Position numbers and translations under genes: made by a program. A stretch of 64,000 nt of DNA from Alphaproteobacteria bacterium (lineage in GTDB: Bacteria > Pseudomonadota > Alphaproteobacteria > Micavibrionales > Micavibrionaceae), in assembly GCA_021776025.1 (NCBI GenBank), contig JAJFGR010000007.1:1-64000 (forward strand). Direction: 5' to 3'. The notes under the pieces are model-generated. The model did not search any database. It saw only the letters and a list, made by a program, of their open reading frames with translations, and was not told the DNA's origin. Below, piece by piece: positions 15,880-24,897 of this stretch (the stretch's first letter is position 1; the number at the start of each line of letters is the position of its first letter).

Positions 15880-15985
15880 ACTTTACATAGACCAAAATCA
15901 CAAAAAATTTCAATTAAATCAATATGATAAAAGTTTTAACTTTTACATATTATACTTACACATGTCTTACACACTTTTTATATTC

Positions 15986-16020
15986 CAGATGTCATCTGAT
16001 TTTTTGTCAGATGACATCTG
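15986..16020. promoter_or_regulatory. 14-bp inverted repeat before the integrase start
   Basis: CAGATGTCATCTGA (15986-15999) and its exact complement (16007-16020) surround a 7-base T-rich loop. Each arm is itself a near-palindrome, CAGATGwCATCTG, which also occurs at 15857 and 30206. The pair ends 23 bases before the preferred integrase ATG. It may be a regulator or excisionase operator, or an RNA hairpin limiting integrase expression. CTTACACA repeats stand just upstream (15955 and 15966). Confidence 0.6.
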
Positions 16021-16043
16021 CAAAATCTGCTGGAGTTAAGAAG

Positions 16044-17288
16044 ATGCAACAAGAAACACACTCTTTCATGGATGGAAAAGTTCACGTTTATAAACGTGAC
16101 AACTCCCGCTTCTGGCAATGTGCCACCTATATGAACGGACGCAATCACCGCGTTTCAACAAAAGAAGAAAGCCTTACTCTTGCAAGAGAGTTCGCGCGCG
16201 AATGGTATATGGCGGTTTACGTAGACTTTAAACGCCAAACCCATAGCAGCCGAACCACCCAACTGCTCGAAAAGTTTGATCCTTTGGATACATCCAAACC
16301 CGAGCCAATAACAAAGCCTCAGAAATCCTCCGGCTATACATTCGCTCAAGCCGCCGAGAAATTTATCGGCGAATATGAATTGAGCGTAGCCGGACAACGC
16401 AACGAACGTTACGCCAAATCTCATGAACGGCGTTTGCTGCTTCACTTAATCCCATTCTTTGGCGATATGCCTATAAAAGACATTAACGCTGGCTTGATGC
16501 AGGAACATCGTATCAGACGAACTCAGAACGGATTTAATGGTAAAATTCCTACACGCAGCACACTGCATCACGAAACGGTTACTATGCGTTTAGTGCTTAA
16601 AACAGCGCACCGTTACGGCTGGATAGATGCCGTGCCGGACATTTCCCCACCCTACAAAACATCAGGGAAAGTTGCACACCGAGCATGGTTTGCACCAGAA
16701 GAATACAAAACGCTTTACGAAGGAACGCGAGAACTCGCAAAAAATCCGACATTAGAACGTTACAGAACGGTCTACGAGGATTTACACGACTACGTGCTAT
16801 TCATGGCGAACACTGGGTTACGGCCTGACGAGGCCGGACGCCTTGAATACAGGGATGTCACACCCGTGACAGACCAAGATACTGGCGAACGCCTTTTAGA
16901 AATTGAGGTGCGCGGTAAGCGCGGCATTGGACACTGTAAAAGCATGACGGGGGCTATTCTGCCGTTTCAGCGGATGCAAGAACGCCATAACGGCCAACCG
17001 ATGGATAAAATCTTCGGCAAGACCCCATGTCTTTTAAACAAGGTTCTGGAAGATCTAGATCTCAAAACAGACCGCGATGGAAATATACGAACGGCTTACA
17101 GCCTTCGTCACACCTACATCTGCTTACGCTTGATGGAAGGTGCGGACATTTACCAAGTGGCCAAGAATTGCCGCACCAGCGTTGAGATGATTGAGAAATA
17201 CTATGCTGTTCATCTCAAAAACACGCTGGACGCTTCGGCGATCAATGTCAGGAAGCCCAAGAGAAAGCCGCGAAAATCAGACGAATAA
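16044..17288 (+). CDS. tyrosine-type site-specific integrase
   Basis: The enzyme cuts and rejoins DNA at att sites through a tyrosine. The core-binding domain spans about 60-170 and the catalytic domain about 185-395. I see the first arginine in NTGLRPDEAGRLEY, the YSLRHTY box with R and H, and the nucleophile in MIEKYYAVHL near the end. The start at 16044 (414 residues) is preferred because GGAG stands 8 bases upstream. A longer frame opens at 15924 but would run through the CTTACACA repeats and the palindrome. The gene ends 53 bases before the tRNA-Leu gene and points towards it. That is the reverse of the usual order, in which the integrase follows the tRNA 3' end. Confidence 0.9.
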   Translation: MQQETHSFMDGKVHVYKRDNSRFWQCATYMNGRNHRVSTKEESLTLAREFAREWYMAVYVDFKRQTHSSRTTQLLEKFDPLDTSKPEPITKPQKSSGYTFAQAAEKFIGEYELSVAGQRNERYAKSHERRLLLHLIPFFGDMPIKDINAGLMQEHRIRRTQNGFNGKIPTRSTLHHETVTMRLVLKTAHRYGWIDAVPDISPPYKTSGKVAHRAWFAPEEYKTLYEGTRELAKNPTLERYRTVYEDLHDYVLFMANTGLRPDEAGRLEYRDVTPVTDQDTGERLLEIEVRGKRGIGHCKSMTGAILPFQRMQERHNGQPMDKIFGKTPCLLNKVLEDLDLKTDRDGNIRTAYSLRHTYICLRLMEGADIYQVAKNCRTSVEMIEKYYAVHLKNTLDASAINVRKPKRKPRKSDE

Positions 17289-17341: not shown

Positions 17342-17638
17342 GGGCCTGTGGCGGAATGGTAGACGCTGCAGACTTAAAAAATTGAGTGCACACCGGGAAA
17401 CCGGAGATGTAGAACTGCTCAAATTCGGGGAAACCTTTCAAATGGCAATCCCGAGCCAAGCCTTTTGGAAACGAAAGGAAGGTGTAGAGACTAGACGGGC
17501 AGCACCTAAAGCTTTTTAGCAACGGTGAAGGGATAGTCCAGACCACAAACCTCATTTAGAGGGCAGTGAAGACTGTAGCGGGTAAGAAAATCTGTTGTCC
17601 GTATGGACGTGCCGGTTCAAGTCCGGCCAGGCCCACCA
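17342..17638 (+). tRNA. tRNA-Leu(UAA) interrupted by a group I intron
   Basis: The exons are 17342-17375 and 17587-17638. Joined, they give an 86-nt class II tRNA with acceptor GGGCCTG/CAGGCCC, anticodon arm GCAGACTTAAAATCTG, a long variable arm, a T arm GCCGG/CCGGC and an encoded CCA. The intron lies between U34 and A35 of the anticodon, the same position as in cyanobacterial tRNA-Leu(UAA). A possible promoter is TTGAAT (17302) with TATCAA (17325). The 3' exon is duplicated at 8860-8911. Confidence 0.93.
17376..17586 (+). ncRNA. self-splicing group I intron, IC3-like, in tRNA-Leu
   Basis: The 211-nt insert follows a U and ends in G, as group I introns do. Its core has the conserved strings GGCAATCCCGAGCCAAGCC (P and Q region, near 17443), AGAGACTAGACGGG (R region, near 17487) and AAGGGATAGTCCA (S region, near 17528). 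These closely match the tRNA-Leu introns of cyanobacteria. It carries no homing endonuclease or other ORF. It should remove itself from the precursor with guanosine as cofactor. Confidence 0.92.
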
Positions 17639-17730
17639 CTTCCTTAGAATTTCGAATACGGCCAAAAGCGGACATTTAGAAAAAGAAGATCATCTTAGCA
17701 ATATTTTTTCCGATACCGATAAATCAATTA

Positions 17731-17759
17731 TTGTCCGAGATATAGAATCGCATTATAAT
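17731..17759 (+). promoter_or_regulatory. sigma-70-like promoter of the reverse-transcriptase leader
   Basis: TTGTCC (17731-17736), 17 bases, then a perfect TATAAT (17754-17759). The predicted start near 17766 falls within two bases of the first position of the 140-bp direct repeat, so the transcript would begin with that repeat. A copy of AGCGGACAT (17667-17675) lies between the tRNA-Leu gene and this promoter. Confidence 0.6.
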
Positions 17760-17767
17760 AGCTCCGT

Positions 17768-17907
17768 TTCCCACCTGCCAGATTATCTGGAAACAAGTTG
17801 GTGACTGTTCATCGCAGCCCGTGTTGTGGTTGGAATGTAGCAAACCAATGAGGCGCCCCTTGGGGTTACTCATTAAGGCTTTTGTGAAATTCAACTTCAG
17901 AGCCTCT
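17768..17907 (+). repeat. 140-bp direct repeat, copy 1, RT-associated leader
   Basis: Identical to 18122-18261 except for three adjacent bases (17826-17828, GTG here and ACA there). It contains two strong foldbacks. The first is CCAGAT-T-ATCTGG (17779-17791). The second is AATGAG closing on CTCATT with an inner CCCC-TT-GGGG (about 17847-17874). The predicted transcription start coincides with its first base. It is most likely part of a structured RNA that the downstream reverse transcriptase binds or copies. Confidence 0.8.
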
Positions 17908-17943
17908 GCCTTTATCACGCTCAAAACAACAAGGAAAAATGCA

Positions 17944-18336
17944 ATGAATGAAAAGCTCTTAACGTTTAACTTCCATATAGGAGCTAGCGGACATGTTTCA
18001 GGGACCGGCGGGGCGCTCGGGTGGCGCGCGATGGCGCTCTTAGGGGCAAAAGTCGCAGATATTTTACATAACGTAAAGTGGGCGGGAGGCAAAATTGCGG
18101 AAGTTGCGGTAAAACACATAGTTCCCACCTGCCAGATTATCTGGAAACAAGTTGGTGACTGTTCATCGCAGCCCGTGTTACAGTTGGAATGTAGCAAACC
18201 AATGAGGCGCCCCTTGGGGTTACTCATTAAGGCTTTTGTGAAATTCAACTTCAGAGCCTCTAGCTTGGTTGAAATGGATGTTTTAGTATGGATTTCAACC
18301 AAGCGGACAGGGTTTTTCCTAAACCACAACAAATAG
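17944..18336 (+). CDS. possible 130-residue protein between and across the repeats
   Basis: An ATG with a well-placed AAGGA site (17931-17935) opens a frame of 130 codons. The first 60 residues are unique, glycine-rich and protein-like (HIGASGHVSGTGGALGWRAM). The rest is the translated second repeat followed by the start of the RT gene region. It overlaps the RT gene by 49 bases. I do not recognise it. The frame runs back open through the first repeat as well, because the repeats are 354 bases (118 codons) apart. It may be a real small gene or an accident of a structured RNA region. Confidence 0.35.
   Translation: MNEKLLTFNFHIGASGHVSGTGGALGWRAMALLGAKVADILHNVKWAGGKIAEVAVKHIVPTCQIIWKQVGDCSSQPVLQLECSKPMRRPLGLLIKAFVKFNFRASSLVEMDVLVWISTKRTGFFLNHNK
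18122..18261 (+). repeat. 140-bp direct repeat, copy 2, RT-associated leader
   Basis: Second copy, 354 bases after the first and ending 26 bases before the RT start codon. 137 of 140 bases agree and all differences are contiguous (18180-18182). The same two foldbacks are kept. The surroundings of the two copies share nothing beyond the repeat itself; the copies end sharply after GAGCCTCT. Confidence 0.8.
18264..18303 (+). promoter_or_regulatory. perfect 12-bp inverted repeat around the RT start codon
   Basis: CTTGGTTGAAAT (18264-18275) pairs with ATTTCAACCAAG (18292-18303). The 16-base loop contains the RT start codon (18288-18290), and there is no ribosome site before it. As RNA this would hide or present the start codon, so translation could be controlled by the fold or by the RT protein itself. 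It follows directly on the second repeat. Confidence 0.65.
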
Positions 18337-19532
18337 CCTCCATCAAAAAAATTGAAGAAGCTTGGAGAGATTCTAATGATTCCAAGGGCACCGGCAGCGC
18401 GCGTGGTGTAGATGGAGAAACGGCCTATAAATTTAAAGGTCGGTTGCAAACAAATTTTCATGAAATAAGACAAGATTTAATCGATGGAACATATGATTTC
18501 AGTAAATTGAAAGCGTTTCCGATTGAGAAAAAACCAGGGAAATACAGAATAATCTGTATTCCCACCATCAGAGATAGGCTTGTTCAGAGGCTAATATTGA
18601 GAAGCCTTACATGGGATTCAAAAACCGGTCGGGAACGCGACCGTCTAAAAACTCAAACTACAGTTAGTTTTGGCGTTAGAAAAGGTAAGGAGCAGAGTGT
18701 TCATGGAGCTATTAAGGCAGCTCTAAAATATCGCAATAAATGTGGCTGGGTGGTTAAAACAGACATTTCTAAGTTTTTTGACCAGATACCTCGTAAAGAA
18801 TTAAAGAAACTTGTGAGAAACAGACTGGGGTCTTCAAGTATTGTTCCTTTAATTGAAAAGGCTATTGATTGTGAGTTGGAAATTCCAAGAGATAAAGAGC
18901 TGCAAGAAATTATAAAAGATAATGGAATAAAAGCGAATGTAGGACTTCGACAGGGAATGCCTTTGTCACCTCTTCTGTCTAATTTGGTGCTCAACAAGTT
19001 TGATAGAAAGGCAGAGCGCAAGGGACTGAAATTAATTCGTTACGCTGATGACATTATTGCCTTCGCTTCTGATGAAGATGAAGCGAAACAAATTTTTTCT
19101 TTTATTGATTCAGAGTTGAGAAAGATAAAATTGAAAATACCAGCGCTTGGCGCAGGCGATAAGTCTGACATTTTTTTGCCTGATAAGCCTGTGATTTTTC
19201 TTGGAATAGAAATTTATAAAAATAAAAAAGGTGAATATGATCGTAGAATACCAAAAGCAACCTTTGAAAAAGCTAGAACTAAAGTTCAGCAACATAAAGA
19301 CCTGAATTGGAATCTTGAAAACAACTATTCATATGCTGATGTGATTAGAAGATTGAAAGATATTCCAGAAGGGTACAGTTCTGCTTTTGGCGATTGCACA
19401 AATCTTGGCTCGCTTCTTGATTTGCTTAAAAAGGAAGGGGGTGATGTTAAGCAGCATCTGATCTCCGAAATATTTGGTGAAGAGGTTTATGCTCGCCTTA
19501 CACCAGAAGAGAAAGACTTTTTAGGGTTTTAG
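18288..19532 (+). CDS. stand-alone reverse transcriptase of uncertain group
   Basis: The 414-residue protein has the RT palm and finger motifs in order: RGVDGETAYKF near 40, PIEKKPGKYRIICIPTIRDRLVQR near 78-101, KTDISKFFDQIP (157-168), LRQGMPLSPLLSNLVL (220-235) and RYADDIIAF (251-259), then FLGIEIY near 304. There is no maturase thumb with HNH nuclease, so it is not a group II intron protein. It lacks the retron NAxxH and VTG signatures, and the QGMPLSP box differs from the xGxxxSQ of diversity-generating retroelements. It most likely belongs to the unknown-group or defence-associated RTs. The repeated leader is its likely RNA partner. Confidence 0.88.
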   Translation: MDFNQADRVFPKPQQIASIKKIEEAWRDSNDSKGTGSARGVDGETAYKFKGRLQTNFHEIRQDLIDGTYDFSKLKAFPIEKKPGKYRIICIPTIRDRLVQRLILRSLTWDSKTGRERDRLKTQTTVSFGVRKGKEQSVHGAIKAALKYRNKCGWVVKTDISKFFDQIPRKELKKLVRNRLGSSSIVPLIEKAIDCELEIPRDKELQEIIKDNGIKANVGLRQGMPLSPLLSNLVLNKFDRKAERKGLKLIRYADDIIAFASDEDEAKQIFSFIDSELRKIKLKIPALGAGDKSDIFLPDKPVIFLGIEIYKNKKGEYDRRIPKATFEKARTKVQQHKDLNWNLENNYSYADVIRRLKDIPEGYSSAFGDCTNLGSLLDLLKKEGGDVKQHLISEIFGEEVYARLTPEEKDFLGF

Positions 19533-21348: not shown

Positions 21349-22422
21349 ATGGCTGTAATTGAAGGACAGATTGAGCCGCTCAAAAAAATAAAGGGCATAC
21401 TGCATGACAATGGAATTACACGATTTAGTTCCATTGGCGAGATTAATTCTTTTAAAAAAAACTATCAGATAGAAAAAAATATAATATCTAAGGAAATTGA
21501 AGTTGAAGTAACTTGCCAAATAAAGCAGCTAGAATGTGACCTCGTCAAATATCAGCAAGAATATGAAGATTTTAAAAATGAAATAATTGGCGACATACAT
21601 AGTGAAATCAAAAGCCTGGATATAGAATTAAAAATCATTAAAGAAAAAAGCAGTAAAAGCTTTATTTACAAAATCCTCTGCTATCCAAAAACAAAATCTC
21701 TAACAAATAAGAATGCGCACTTAGAAACAAATTTTGACAATGTCGTAAGCAACAGAACGCACCACTACGAAAAACAAGCTGTCGAAACCAGAGATAAATT
21801 AAACGATTATACGACCAATAAAGACAAAATAATATCAGAGCGCACCCTAGATTCATCGCGAGAGTTAGAGAATACAAAGGAGGTTGTTGACGGACTTTAC
21901 CCTTTAATTGCTGGAGCAATAGGGGAGAATTCCGTCACAAAAGAAGTCCAAAAGCTGCCTGATAACTTTCATTTGTTTAATGATTTTTCAGTGGAGTTTG
22001 ATCCACCTATCTACAACAAAAAAGAAGATGACAGGATATACAGTATTCAAATAGATCATCTATTAGTCTGTGAGGCGGGAATTTTTGTTTTAGAGACAAA
22101 AAACTGGGGCAAACAATCAGTTAATAGCCTTGATCTGAGGTCTCCTATAAAACAGATACGAAGATCAAGTTTTGCTCTGTTTGTGATGCTAAATAGCCGA
22201 TCAAACCACAATATCAATTTGGAGCGCCACCACTGGGGCAGCAAACAGATACCTGTTAGAAACCTAATCGTTATGACTGGCGCGAAACCAAAAGAAGAAT
22301 TCAAGCATGTAAAAGTCTTATCGCTTAAGGAACTGAACGGATACATAACCTATTTTGACCCTATTTTTAGCACTGCAGAAGTCGAGAGCCTTTGTGATTA
22401 TTTAAAAATGAAAACATCCTAA
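21349..22422 (+). CDS. NERD-domain (nuclease-related) protein with coiled coil
   Basis: Residues 1-155 are rich in charged heptads and probably form a coiled coil. Residues 180-330 are a NERD domain of the PD-(D/E)xK nuclease superfamily: IAGAIGENSVTKEV, then IQIDHLLVCEAGIFVLETKNWG, which supplies D and E-x-K. The C-terminal VRNLIVMTGAKPKEEF and a final helix match the family. NERD proteins are often found in mobile or defence gene sets. No partner gene is in the same direction until the relaxase. Confidence 0.78.
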   Translation: MAVIEGQIEPLKKIKGILHDNGITRFSSIGEINSFKKNYQIEKNIISKEIEVEVTCQIKQLECDLVKYQQEYEDFKNEIIGDIHSEIKSLDIELKIIKEKSSKSFIYKILCYPKTKSLTNKNAHLETNFDNVVSNRTHHYEKQAVETRDKLNDYTTNKDKIISERTLDSSRELENTKEVVDGLYPLIAGAIGENSVTKEVQKLPDNFHLFNDFSVEFDPPIYNKKEDDRIYSIQIDHLLVCEAGIFVLETKNWGKQSVNSLDLRSPIKQIRRSSFALFVMLNSRSNHNINLERHHWGSKQIPVRNLIVMTGAKPKEEFKHVKVLSLKELNGYITYFDPIFSTAEVESLCDYLKMKTS

Positions 22423-22513
22423 ATCAACCAAATGGATGGCCCAAAACAGCAAAGTATTGGAATACTAGCCTTGTACCTAAGCCTCAAACCCAGTAAAACG
22501 GCTTTATGCCGTA

Positions 22514-22640
22514 GCCCTCATAGGCATGACCCCTTCCCCGCCCGGGTGGGTGGTGAGCCCTTCGTTTAGCTCCGGCGCTCTTAAATATTCCTAAAGACAT
22601 TCTGTGAGATCATAAAAGTGTAATAGCGCACTTACGCAAA
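22514..22640. other. putative origin of transfer (oriT), with repeat B copy 2
   Basis: The block upstream of the relaxase gene shares its first hundred bases with 9034-9156. It then contains TAAGTGCGC on the minus strand (22634-22626). The same string is the core of the RSF1010-type nic site, which MobQ relaxases cut, and the adjacent gene is a MobQ relaxase. The CCCGCCCGGGTGGG region and the GGCGCTC segment may provide stem structure. The gap 22423-22513 holds nothing else I can support. Confidence 0.5.
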
Positions 22641-22689
22641 CTATGTTTGCAGAGCGCTTATGGCACAACTTTTACTGCGTAAAAAAACA

Positions 22690-24897
22690 ATGGCGATCTA
22701 CCATTGCTCAGTTCGAACCTTTTCGAGGGCTAGCGGCCACTCCGCCGTTGCCGCCGCAGCCTATCGCGCTGGAGCATCTCTGCGATGCGAGCGCTCCGGG
22801 CGTACTCATCACTACGAAAACCGCCATGGTGTACATAGCGCTTTTATACTCGCTCCAAGCTCAGCCCCCTCAAAGTTCCACTCTCGTGCCATCCTATGGA
22901 ATGCAGCAGAGGCCAGTGAGAACCGCAAAAACTCAAGGCTAGCGCGTGAAGTTATTCTTGCTCTCCCCCATGAGCTATCAGATGCACATCGCGAGGCTTT
23001 AGCCCGTGACATGGCGCTATATCTGATAGAGCGCTACCGCGTGGCCGTAGATGTTGCAATCCATAGCCCTGTTGCTGGGGATGGTCATGATCCCCGCAAC
23101 CACCACGCCCATCTGCTCTTCACCACCCGTGAAATCACATCTGAGGGCTTTGGCGTAAAAACCCGCATTCTTGATGACAAGAAAGCAGGCCCGCAAGAGA
23201 TTGAACTCTTGCGCGAGGTTTGGGAGGTATTGGCCAATGATACTTTGGCCAAAGCCGGGCATTCCGATGTTCAGATTGACCGCAGGACGTTAGATGACCA
23301 AGGCATCGACCGTATCCCCCAAACCCATATAGGGCCGAAAGGCCAAGAAATAGCAGCCCAAGAGGCCCAAGATGATGAAGAGGAAGAAAGCGGCAAAGGA
23401 GAAACCGGCAAGAAGGGTTCCGGCGGCGGGAGTGGGCAAGCGCCCACAGGCGATAATAAGAATAAAGATGATGAGGGCGATAAAAGCGGCGATAGCGGAT
23501 CTGGTGATCCGGTAGCTTTGAAGCTGCAAAGCAAGCGTAAAACTGACGATGGGCGCATCATCAACTACCCCGCCATCGATAAGAACAAGTCTAGATCCGC
23601 ATTCGTTGCTGAGATTAAGAAGCTCAACGCCCAAAGAGCCGCCTTTGGTGAAAAGCCGCTCAAAGAGCAAATCAAAGACATAGATAAGCTCATGGAGCGT
23701 TTGGATACCCGCCTTGCGCATATGGAAGAGCTATCTGGTAAGACAGCTTTGCCCAGCCGCATCATGGTCGCGCTTGAAAAAGCGGTTTCTACGGCTACTA
23801 AGCTTATTGGATTGCGCGAGGTTGCTAAGGATAGCTTTAAACTTTCACAAAGCGAGCAGCGCGTGAGGGTAGAGCGCCAGCAAGGCCGCTATGGCAAAAC
23901 CTACCGGCGCGGACTTCACTCACAAATCCGCGAGATGAAGACAAACATCGAGAGCTTGCAAACCAAGCAAGAGCAGCATGCTCGCTACTCAGCTTTCGTA
24001 GAAAAATTAGAAAAAGAAATTGTAAGGCACACTCCCTCTATTACCCCTAGGAAAGAAACGTTTAAGTCTGTTTCTAAGACAACGCGGCAAGAGTCCTCCC
24101 TTAAAGTTCAGCTTAAGGCGAGTGCAGCGCGTGAAAACTTACCACTCCGTTATCAACAGCAGGTTCAGGTGAAAAGACCTGCGTCCGTTGATACCCCAAA
24201 ACTAAATGAAATTGCGGCGAAGAAGTTTGAGCTTCCCGTTAAACCCCAAGAGCCTAAAAGCGAAGCGCGCGTTGAAACAAAAACACTACAGCAACGCTTC
24301 ACCGCTAAAGCAGAAAAGCCGCCCTCTGAGACCAAAGAGCCAACCTACAAAACAAAGAACGTCGTTTCGTTTAAAGCGCTCACTGAGGAAAGAAAAACCC
24401 ACCGGGTCATTAAGGCGGAGACCCTTACTGATTCGAGCGCCTATAAGCAGCCCCTCAAAACTGAAATCAAAGGCTTAAAAGTAGAGGCTGCAAAACGAGG
24501 GCGAAACTTTGTGCGCACTCAAAAAACAATCAATAGTGAGCGCGCCGCAGCCAAAACCGAAGTAAAGGGTAAGTTCAACAAGCCCGAAGATCACGGCCCG
24601 AAACAAGTGCGAACTAGGGATGTTTTAGAGCGCTTAAAAGAAACCGCTTCTAAAGCGAGAGAGAAAATTCCGCTGCGGTACAGGGCCACAGCTCATGAAG
24701 AAAAGGTAGATAAACCAGCTAGGCAAAGCACAAAGGGAAGTTTTACAGCAGCCCAAGGGCAAGCTTCCGACACAGAGAACCCCACCGCTAAAATGAACGC
24801 AGGGTTTAACAATGCTTCAAACCTCAACACAAAACAACCATCAGAAAAAAGAACCAGTACACAGCCAAAAGAAGAGCCTGACGCTGAACTCATATAA
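22690..24897 (+). CDS. MobA/MobL-family (MobQ) conjugative relaxase
   Basis: Relaxases nick oriT and pilot the strand into the recipient. The N-terminus AIYHCSVRTFSRASGHSAVAAAAYRAG is the family signature including the tyrosine. HNHHAHLLFTTRE-type histidines near 135-145 form the HUH metal site. Residues 230-735 are a long charged, low-complexity and helical tail of unknown role. I choose ATG 22690, which gives the usual MAIYHC start; the frame extends 10 codons upstream. No primase, MobC or coupling protein gene follows, so it would depend on a helper. The oriT-like site is directly upstream. Confidence 0.88.
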   Translation: MAIYHCSVRTFSRASGHSAVAAAAYRAGASLRCERSGRTHHYENRHGVHSAFILAPSSAPSKFHSRAILWNAAEASENRKNSRLAREVILALPHELSDAHREALARDMALYLIERYRVAVDVAIHSPVAGDGHDPRNHHAHLLFTTREITSEGFGVKTRILDDKKAGPQEIELLREVWEVLANDTLAKAGHSDVQIDRRTLDDQGIDRIPQTHIGPKGQEIAAQEAQDDEEEESGKGETGKKGSGGGSGQAPTGDNKNKDDEGDKSGDSGSGDPVALKLQSKRKTDDGRIINYPAIDKNKSRSAFVAEIKKLNAQRAAFGEKPLKEQIKDIDKLMERLDTRLAHMEELSGKTALPSRIMVALEKAVSTATKLIGLREVAKDSFKLSQSEQRVRVERQQGRYGKTYRRGLHSQIREMKTNIESLQTKQEQHARYSAFVEKLEKEIVRHTPSITPRKETFKSVSKTTRQESSLKVQLKASAARENLPLRYQQQVQVKRPASVDTPKLNEIAAKKFELPVKPQEPKSEARVETKTLQQRFTAKAEKPPSETKEPTYKTKNVVSFKALTEERKTHRVIKAETLTDSSAYKQPLKTEIKGLKVEAAKRGRNFVRTQKTINSERAAAKTEVKGKFNKPEDHGPKQVRTRDVLERLKETASKAREKIPLRYRATAHEEKVDKPARQSTKGSFTAAQGQASDTENPTAKMNAGFNNASNLNTKQPSEKRTSTQPKEEPDAELI

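Follow-up and report, generated by a model that had tools for sequence, protein, structure and literature searches.

Phased direct repeats ahead of a group II-like reverse transcriptase form an endless reading frame and suggest a second route to de novo gene synthesis

To our knowledge, no system other than DRT2 has cells write a gene that is absent, in readable form, from their own genome. DRT2 encodes a structured RNA upstream of its reverse transcriptase (RT), from which a concatemer with a stop-free frame (neo) and ultimately a repetitive toxic protein (Neo) are produced. The cDNA arises by rolling-circle synthesis over a unit of ~120 nt with a 3-nt ACA homology, neo lies antisense to the noncoding RNA, and its promoter forms only at the repeat junction (PMC11100668, PMC12039810). 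DRT10 (UG17) is characterized by 9-nt repeats, a SLATT partner, and a YVDD motif (PMC12632851). Here we describe an RT gene and its leader from a 64,000-nt stretch of alphaproteobacterial DNA (contig JAJFGR010000007.1, positions 1 to 64,000, assembly GCA_021776025.1), which we refer to as the window. The leader consists of two copies of a long direct repeat (R1 and R2) that enclose a unique segment (U), and the repeat unit R + U contains a reading frame that never ends when the unit is joined to itself.

The host of this RT has a 2.3-Mb genome in which the RT and the leader each occur once. Close relatives are found in G041 (L006/L011), a metagenome-assembled genome (MAG) titled Micavibrio sp. 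from another family of the same order, with an RT of 79% identity and the same two-copy leader, and in G102 (L007/L012), with an RT of 77% identity and a single repeat, attached to the flank that lies upstream of R1. The main elements in the window are the following:

17768..17912, plus strand: repeat copy 1 (R1), 145 nt; kept in L011/G041; present once in L007/L012/G102
17913..18121, plus strand: U, the unique segment, 209 nt; sense (neo) frame open throughout; 183 nt compared with G041 are 89% identical
18122..18266, plus strand: repeat copy 2 (R2), 145 nt
18288..19532, plus strand: RT, 414 aa, with RQGMPLSP and YADD motifs and no maturase domain

A first-pass annotation of the window had described a duplicated leader repeat of ~140 bp that ends 26 nt before the RT start codon. 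The duplication is real: the two copies are 97% identical with a start-to-start spacing of 354 bp, and R2 ends 21–26 nt before the start codon, depending on where the match is cut. The five mismatches between the copies fall at repeat positions 59–61 (GTG/ACA) and 141–142. What the annotation missed is the value of the spacing, 3 × 118, and a sense frame that is open across the entire unit.

Single-sequence searches of genome and viral contigs with the RT returned no matches, and a profile search recovered ~45 family loci from Alpha-, Beta-, and Gammaproteobacteria, some of them on plasmids and some in contigs catalogued as viral. We measured the longest direct repeat 5′ of each RT and grouped alignable units into clusters. 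Two-copy leaders occur at 36 loci (23 clusters), with repeats of 63–150 bp that are 94–100% identical within a locus. The units measure 291–453 bp, and their length is divisible by three in 22 of the 23 clusters (P = 5 × 10−10 at a chance of 1/3). Since there are ~20 distinct lengths, nearly all divisible by three, we conclude that length changes came in threes; the units of the window and of G041 are 6 nt apart. The same 22 clusters have one sense frame, here called the neo frame, that remains free of stops in a head-to-tail array of the unit. For units below 50% GC the chance of such a frame is 0–0.02, as estimated by dinucleotide shuffling. In total, the 426 neo-frame codons that lie between R1 and the first start codon of U contain no stop, compared to 35 stops in the other two frames (P = 2 × 10−8). 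An ordinary gene that starts in U would not need this stretch to be free of stops; therefore, we read the frame as running from one unit into the next. Repeats of diversity-generating retroelements (DGRs) near RTs (L070–L079), examined as controls, have spacings that are mostly not divisible by three and no open sense frame, and the survey of upstream repeats at other RT loci, neither DGR nor family, found no such repeats. Antisense frames of the joined unit are open in some clusters only. In the window an antisense frame is open across the whole unit (17724–18473, minus strand), as is the case in L011 and not in most relatives.

The neo frame also carries signals for translation:

17931..17946, plus strand: AAGGA Shine–Dalgarno-like site and ATG (17944) in the neo frame, 31 nt 3′ of R1
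17944..18336, plus strand: native one-unit reading frame, 130 aa, spanning U and R2; its stop overlaps the RT gene; no Pfam match

Most clusters contain a Shine–Dalgarno site and a start codon in this frame within ~100 nt of R1, with stronger versions in relatives (GGAGGTGCCCATG in L015 and GAGGAGGTTATG in L121). A hydrophobic, often transmembrane-like stretch that follows basic residues in U is enriched among the units (combined P = 5 × 10−14 versus codon shuffles). A comparison of the neo sequences with Pfam gave no convincing match. The ratio of nonsynonymous to synonymous substitution (dN/dS) in the U part of neo is 0.22–0.78, below 1 in seven of seven pairs, and the codon-position bias is weak; the neo sequence is loosely constrained. 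Locus L121, fetched after the prediction had been noted, fits in length (375), frame, Shine–Dalgarno–ATG pair, and hydrophobic segment; L122, fetched alongside, has no repeat.

From these features we infer how the system may work. It is likely, in our judgment, that the R1–U–R2 RNA serves as the template for the stand-alone RT and is copied into a concatemer with an endless open reading frame (ORF), so that the locus would act as a "gene factory". A promoter before R1 would yield an RNA carrying one and the same 145-nt sequence at its 5′ and 3′ ends. The RT would start in or near R2 and copy U and R1; at the RNA 5′ end the cDNA complementary to R1 could re-anneal to R2 of the same or another RNA, a jump modeled on the R regions in retroviral strand transfer. 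Each round would add one 354-nt unit to a concatemer (R-U)n, which may then be made double-stranded, transcribed, and translated. The frame lies on the leader strand with its ATG in U and meets no stop in the joined unit; the predicted product is a polypeptide built of repeats, in which each unit contributes one or two segments that span the membrane or are amphipathic. Because the chromosomal frame reaches its stop shortly 3′ of R2, at or close to the start of the RT, only the one-unit form would be possible without the RT. By analogy to Neo in DRT2, the product would most likely be a growth-arresting effector of abortive phage defense, with phage as the presumed trigger; a defense role of RT and leader is plausible. 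A template RNA whose two ends share one sequence, the proposed jump device, recalls long terminal repeat (LTR) retroelements. This analogy concerns mechanism only, as unlike LTR retroelements the window system has no integrase, gag, or mobility, and the fold of its RT is nearest to group II-type RTs.

The annotation had named DRT2 for comparison and considered the leader to be of no known form. The latter still holds, since we found no published description of such a leader in the literature searched (subscription papers lay outside the search), whereas the likeness to DRT2 is closer than had been thought, given that the repeat unit is a never-ending ORF. Both systems encode a structured RNA just upstream of the RT, share a hydrophobic bias and a proposed repetitive toxic protein, and have a concatenated unit that is divisible by three with a stop-free frame, here in 22 of 23 clusters. 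In contrast to DRT2, the coding strand is the sense strand, the unit measures 291–453 nt instead of 120, direct repeats of 63–150 nt take the place of the 3-nt ACA homology, and both junctions are already present in the chromosome instead of creating a promoter only upon joining. The RT is no Drt2 either (profile NF041746: 53.5 bits, cut-off 390). The proposed outcome resembles that of DRT2, but the system is not a member of DRT2, from which it differs in RT family, coding strand, unit size, and jump device. As for DRT10 and DRT9, RNA-templated repetitive cDNA is proposed; unlike DRT10, the unit is gene-sized, the motif is YADD, and no constant partner is seen among the 25 commonest flanking families. 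With somewhat less assurance than for the template role itself, we lean toward the view that this family represents a second, independently evolved form of de novo gene synthesis, built from a group II-like RT, long terminal direct repeats, and a sense-strand gene without end that encodes a multi-pass membrane toxin. If this is true, the same trick arose more than once, with another RT lineage, another jump device, and the opposite coding strand, and a group of orphan group II-like RTs would be explained. Repeat homology combined with unit lengths in threes would then provide a simple handle for finding more hidden genes, and the endless-gene reading makes a clean prediction that a single long-read experiment can test.

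Which RTs are the closest to this one? The annotation had reported YADD and QGMPLSP motifs and no maturase domain, and had set the enzyme apart from retrons and DGRs. We confirmed the motifs in the ORF, and Pfam detects only RVT_1 in the window RT and in L027, while maturase-bearing controls show GIIM. The best curated profile is that of group II RTs (TIGR04416, 187.8 bits, cut-off 300); all others, Drt2 among them, score far below their cut-offs, including the retron profile NF038233 (71.6 bits, cut-off 235). No group II intron RNA was found at the window by Rfam. A profile built from the family gives at least 365 bits for its members and at most 193 bits for every other RT. In a FastTree phylogeny all 37 family tips form one group, separate from retrons, DGRs, RT-Cas1, and the group II RTs that carry a maturase, with a small group of uncharacterized RTs as sister; support for the family stem was lost in rooting, the tree includes no G2L4 sequence, and the DRT2 sequences, for which the reference search had yielded hits that were all degenerate or from plasmids, were dropped after trimming, so that DRT2 was compared by profile score only. 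The outgroup sequence L051 is a Cas6-RT-Cas1 fusion in a Nitrospiraceae MAG. An AlphaFold2 model of the window RT (predicted local distance difference test score 90.9) is closest in fold to G2L4 (9d4s, Z 30.1) and GsI-IIC (6ar1, Z 29.4). Accordingly, the family is neither DRT2/UG, DGR, nor retron; it is apparently undescribed and lies nearest in fold and sequence to group II intron, CRISPR-associated, and G2L4 RTs (G2L4 being compared by fold). It differs from group II intron RTs by its subthreshold TIGR04416 score, the missing GIIM domain and intron RNA, and its separate clade. UG17/DRT10 membership, considered on the basis of PADLOC, was rejected because the same profile scores other maturase-type group II RTs equally or better. 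With dN/dS of 0.09 between the window and L012, and 0.09–0.17 across pairs that are not saturated, the RT is under strong purifying selection.

The alternative that fares best, although we consider it unlikely, is an ordinary operon in which a small membrane protein, encoded by U together with R2, is translated straight from the chromosomal copy, in coupling with the RT, with R1 as a regulatory or structural duplicate and no concatemer. The Shine–Dalgarno site and start codon in U, the hydrophobic segment, and a frame that ends at or just before the RT start agree with such an arrangement. In L004, L010, L025, and L069 the stop of the neo frame even runs into the start codon of the RT (ATGA), a sign that translation of neo and RT may be coupled. 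However, an operon requires no phase between R1 and U, and neither the spacing in threes nor the stop-free stretch from R1 to the start codon would be expected from it. Moreover, L017, L046, L058, and L069 lack any start codon upstream of the 3′ end of R1, and R1 is therefore not ordinarily translated.

Less probable again is a noncoding template or scaffold, in which the repeats serve only RNA structure or the synthesis of repeat cDNA (as in DRT10 or DRT9) and the open frame is incidental. This idea draws on the structure of the leader. The annotation had described two strong foldbacks per repeat copy; these are present in the window (CCAGATTATCTGG and AATGAG..CCCCTTGGGG..CTCATT), but the folding energy of a copy is not exceptional (z = −0.87 and −0.83), and that of the 520-nt leader is not significant either. 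The evidence for an RNA structure comes instead from covariation among homologues. An alignment of ten sequences (A3), covering R1 and the start of U, contains 30 pairs, 11 of which changed on both sides, and none of 500 shuffles reaches any of these measures. Shifted controls are 41–49% paired compared to 87%, a control that is favored by the structure having been derived from the same alignment. A consensus structure for R2 and its 3′ flank is weak. The leader is also held at the nucleotide level, because U is 89% identical between the window and G041 while synonymous sites of the RT are saturated (proportion of synonymous differences, pS, 0.81). Covariation, nucleotide conservation, and the weak amino acid constraint speak for a noncoding RNA, but length in threes, a stop-free sense frame, a Shine–Dalgarno–ATG pair, and a hydrophobic bias are not expected of one. 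Three further features of the leader RNA deserve mention:

17826..17828, plus strand: site s in R1, GTG (ACA in R2); homologue copies differ at the matching position
18180..18182, plus strand: site s in R2, ACA; candidate site at which cDNA synthesis would start or jump
18263..18304, plus strand: hairpin with a 13-bp stem and the RT start codon in its loop (z = −2.35); present after R2 only, both arms kept in L011 and L007

Across nine mismatch-bearing loci, columns 50–54 of A3 hold 19 of 26 mismatches. The repeat copies are near-identical within a locus and diverged between loci; copy-specific bases that are fixed at one position of otherwise homogenized repeats suggest a functional difference at site s, which is perhaps where synthesis starts or jumps. 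A DGR or retrohoming element, with one repeat as template and the other as target, would account for two near-identical 100–150-nt repeats beside an RT, one of them ending a reading frame, but this is very improbable, and DGR identity was rejected, since the mismatches are not spread over adenines and form one site of up to three bases, the RT contains QGMPLSP and falls outside the DGR clade, and DGR loci from the same search differ at 9–19% of positions and keep no reading phase.

Several observations weigh against the synthesis of an endless gene from this template. L024 is out of frame, as are L048 and L080 within otherwise good clusters, where single-base deletions look to be the cause, and one stop interrupts the frame of L030. 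The single mismatch in L121 lies away from site s, so that this prediction failed. The window unit itself has no clear transmembrane segment (19-residue maximum 1.27); by inspection, a stretch rich in glycine and alanine, possibly amphipathic, takes its place. Internal promoters are convincing in a few units only. Among 85 proteins that flank the RT at 28 loci (25 commonest families listed), no family turns up repeatedly, and no constant defense neighbor was found. Finally, U is missing and R is single at ~10 family loci (among them L012, L021, L022, L026, L029, L036, L038, L040, and L041), and in the single-copy pair L036/L038 the RT is still under selection (dN/dS 0.15). We found no convincing U or collapsed second copy elsewhere in G102 or in the genomes of L036 and L038. 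These loci may reflect natural deletion or collapse during short-read assembly, and they are the chief unexplained observation. The duplications themselves are no assembly artifact, because two-copy leaders are also present in complete records (L004, L005, L009, L010, L014, and L042).

Homologues with the repeated leader are found down to ~30% RT identity, and the proposal of the annotation that an RT with a structured two-repeat leader is a form not yet known has withstood both tests it had named, the clade of the RT and the leaders of its homologues. The family is sporadic and rare: a sample of 398 Pseudomonadota genomes contained no member except that of the window, and no close member was found in phages. 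A contig titled Heimdallarchaeota (L045) carries an Acinetobacter-type leader and RT that are nearly the same as those of the Acinetobacter locus L043, probably because of contamination of the MAG; one other family contig is titled Marinimicrobia. Given that no neighbor recurs, RT and leader look self-contained. Some loci lie near restriction-modification, HipA, resolvase, or integrase genes and others near housekeeping genes, which fits an accessory element and is no proof of defense.

A candidate promoter for the window leader is the following element:

17731..17759, plus strand: predicted sigma-70 promoter (TTGTCC 17731–17736, N17, TATAAT 17754–17759); expected start ~17766–17768

Its −10 box ends 8 nt 5′ of R1, and its score is reached by none of 100 shuffles. 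A transcript start at the first base of the repeat, as the annotation had proposed, is thus plausible to within 1–2 bases in the window. A search across all homologues for a promoter at constant spacing from R1 found none; a start exactly at the repeat is not a rule of the family.

Directly upstream of the leader lies a gene for tRNA-Leu(UAA) that is interrupted by a group I intron (17342–17638). The intron matches Rfam RF00028 at 17366–17561, and ARAGORN detects the split tRNA only if introns are allowed. An ORF resembling a tyrosine integrase (15924–17288) adjoins this tRNA gene, and the RTs of L011 and L012 are likewise located directly 3′ of tRNA genes. Together, these positions suggest an integration hot spot. 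Downstream of the RT, genes for a NERD nuclease-related protein and a MobA/MobL relaxase (21349–24897) are the remains of a mobile element.
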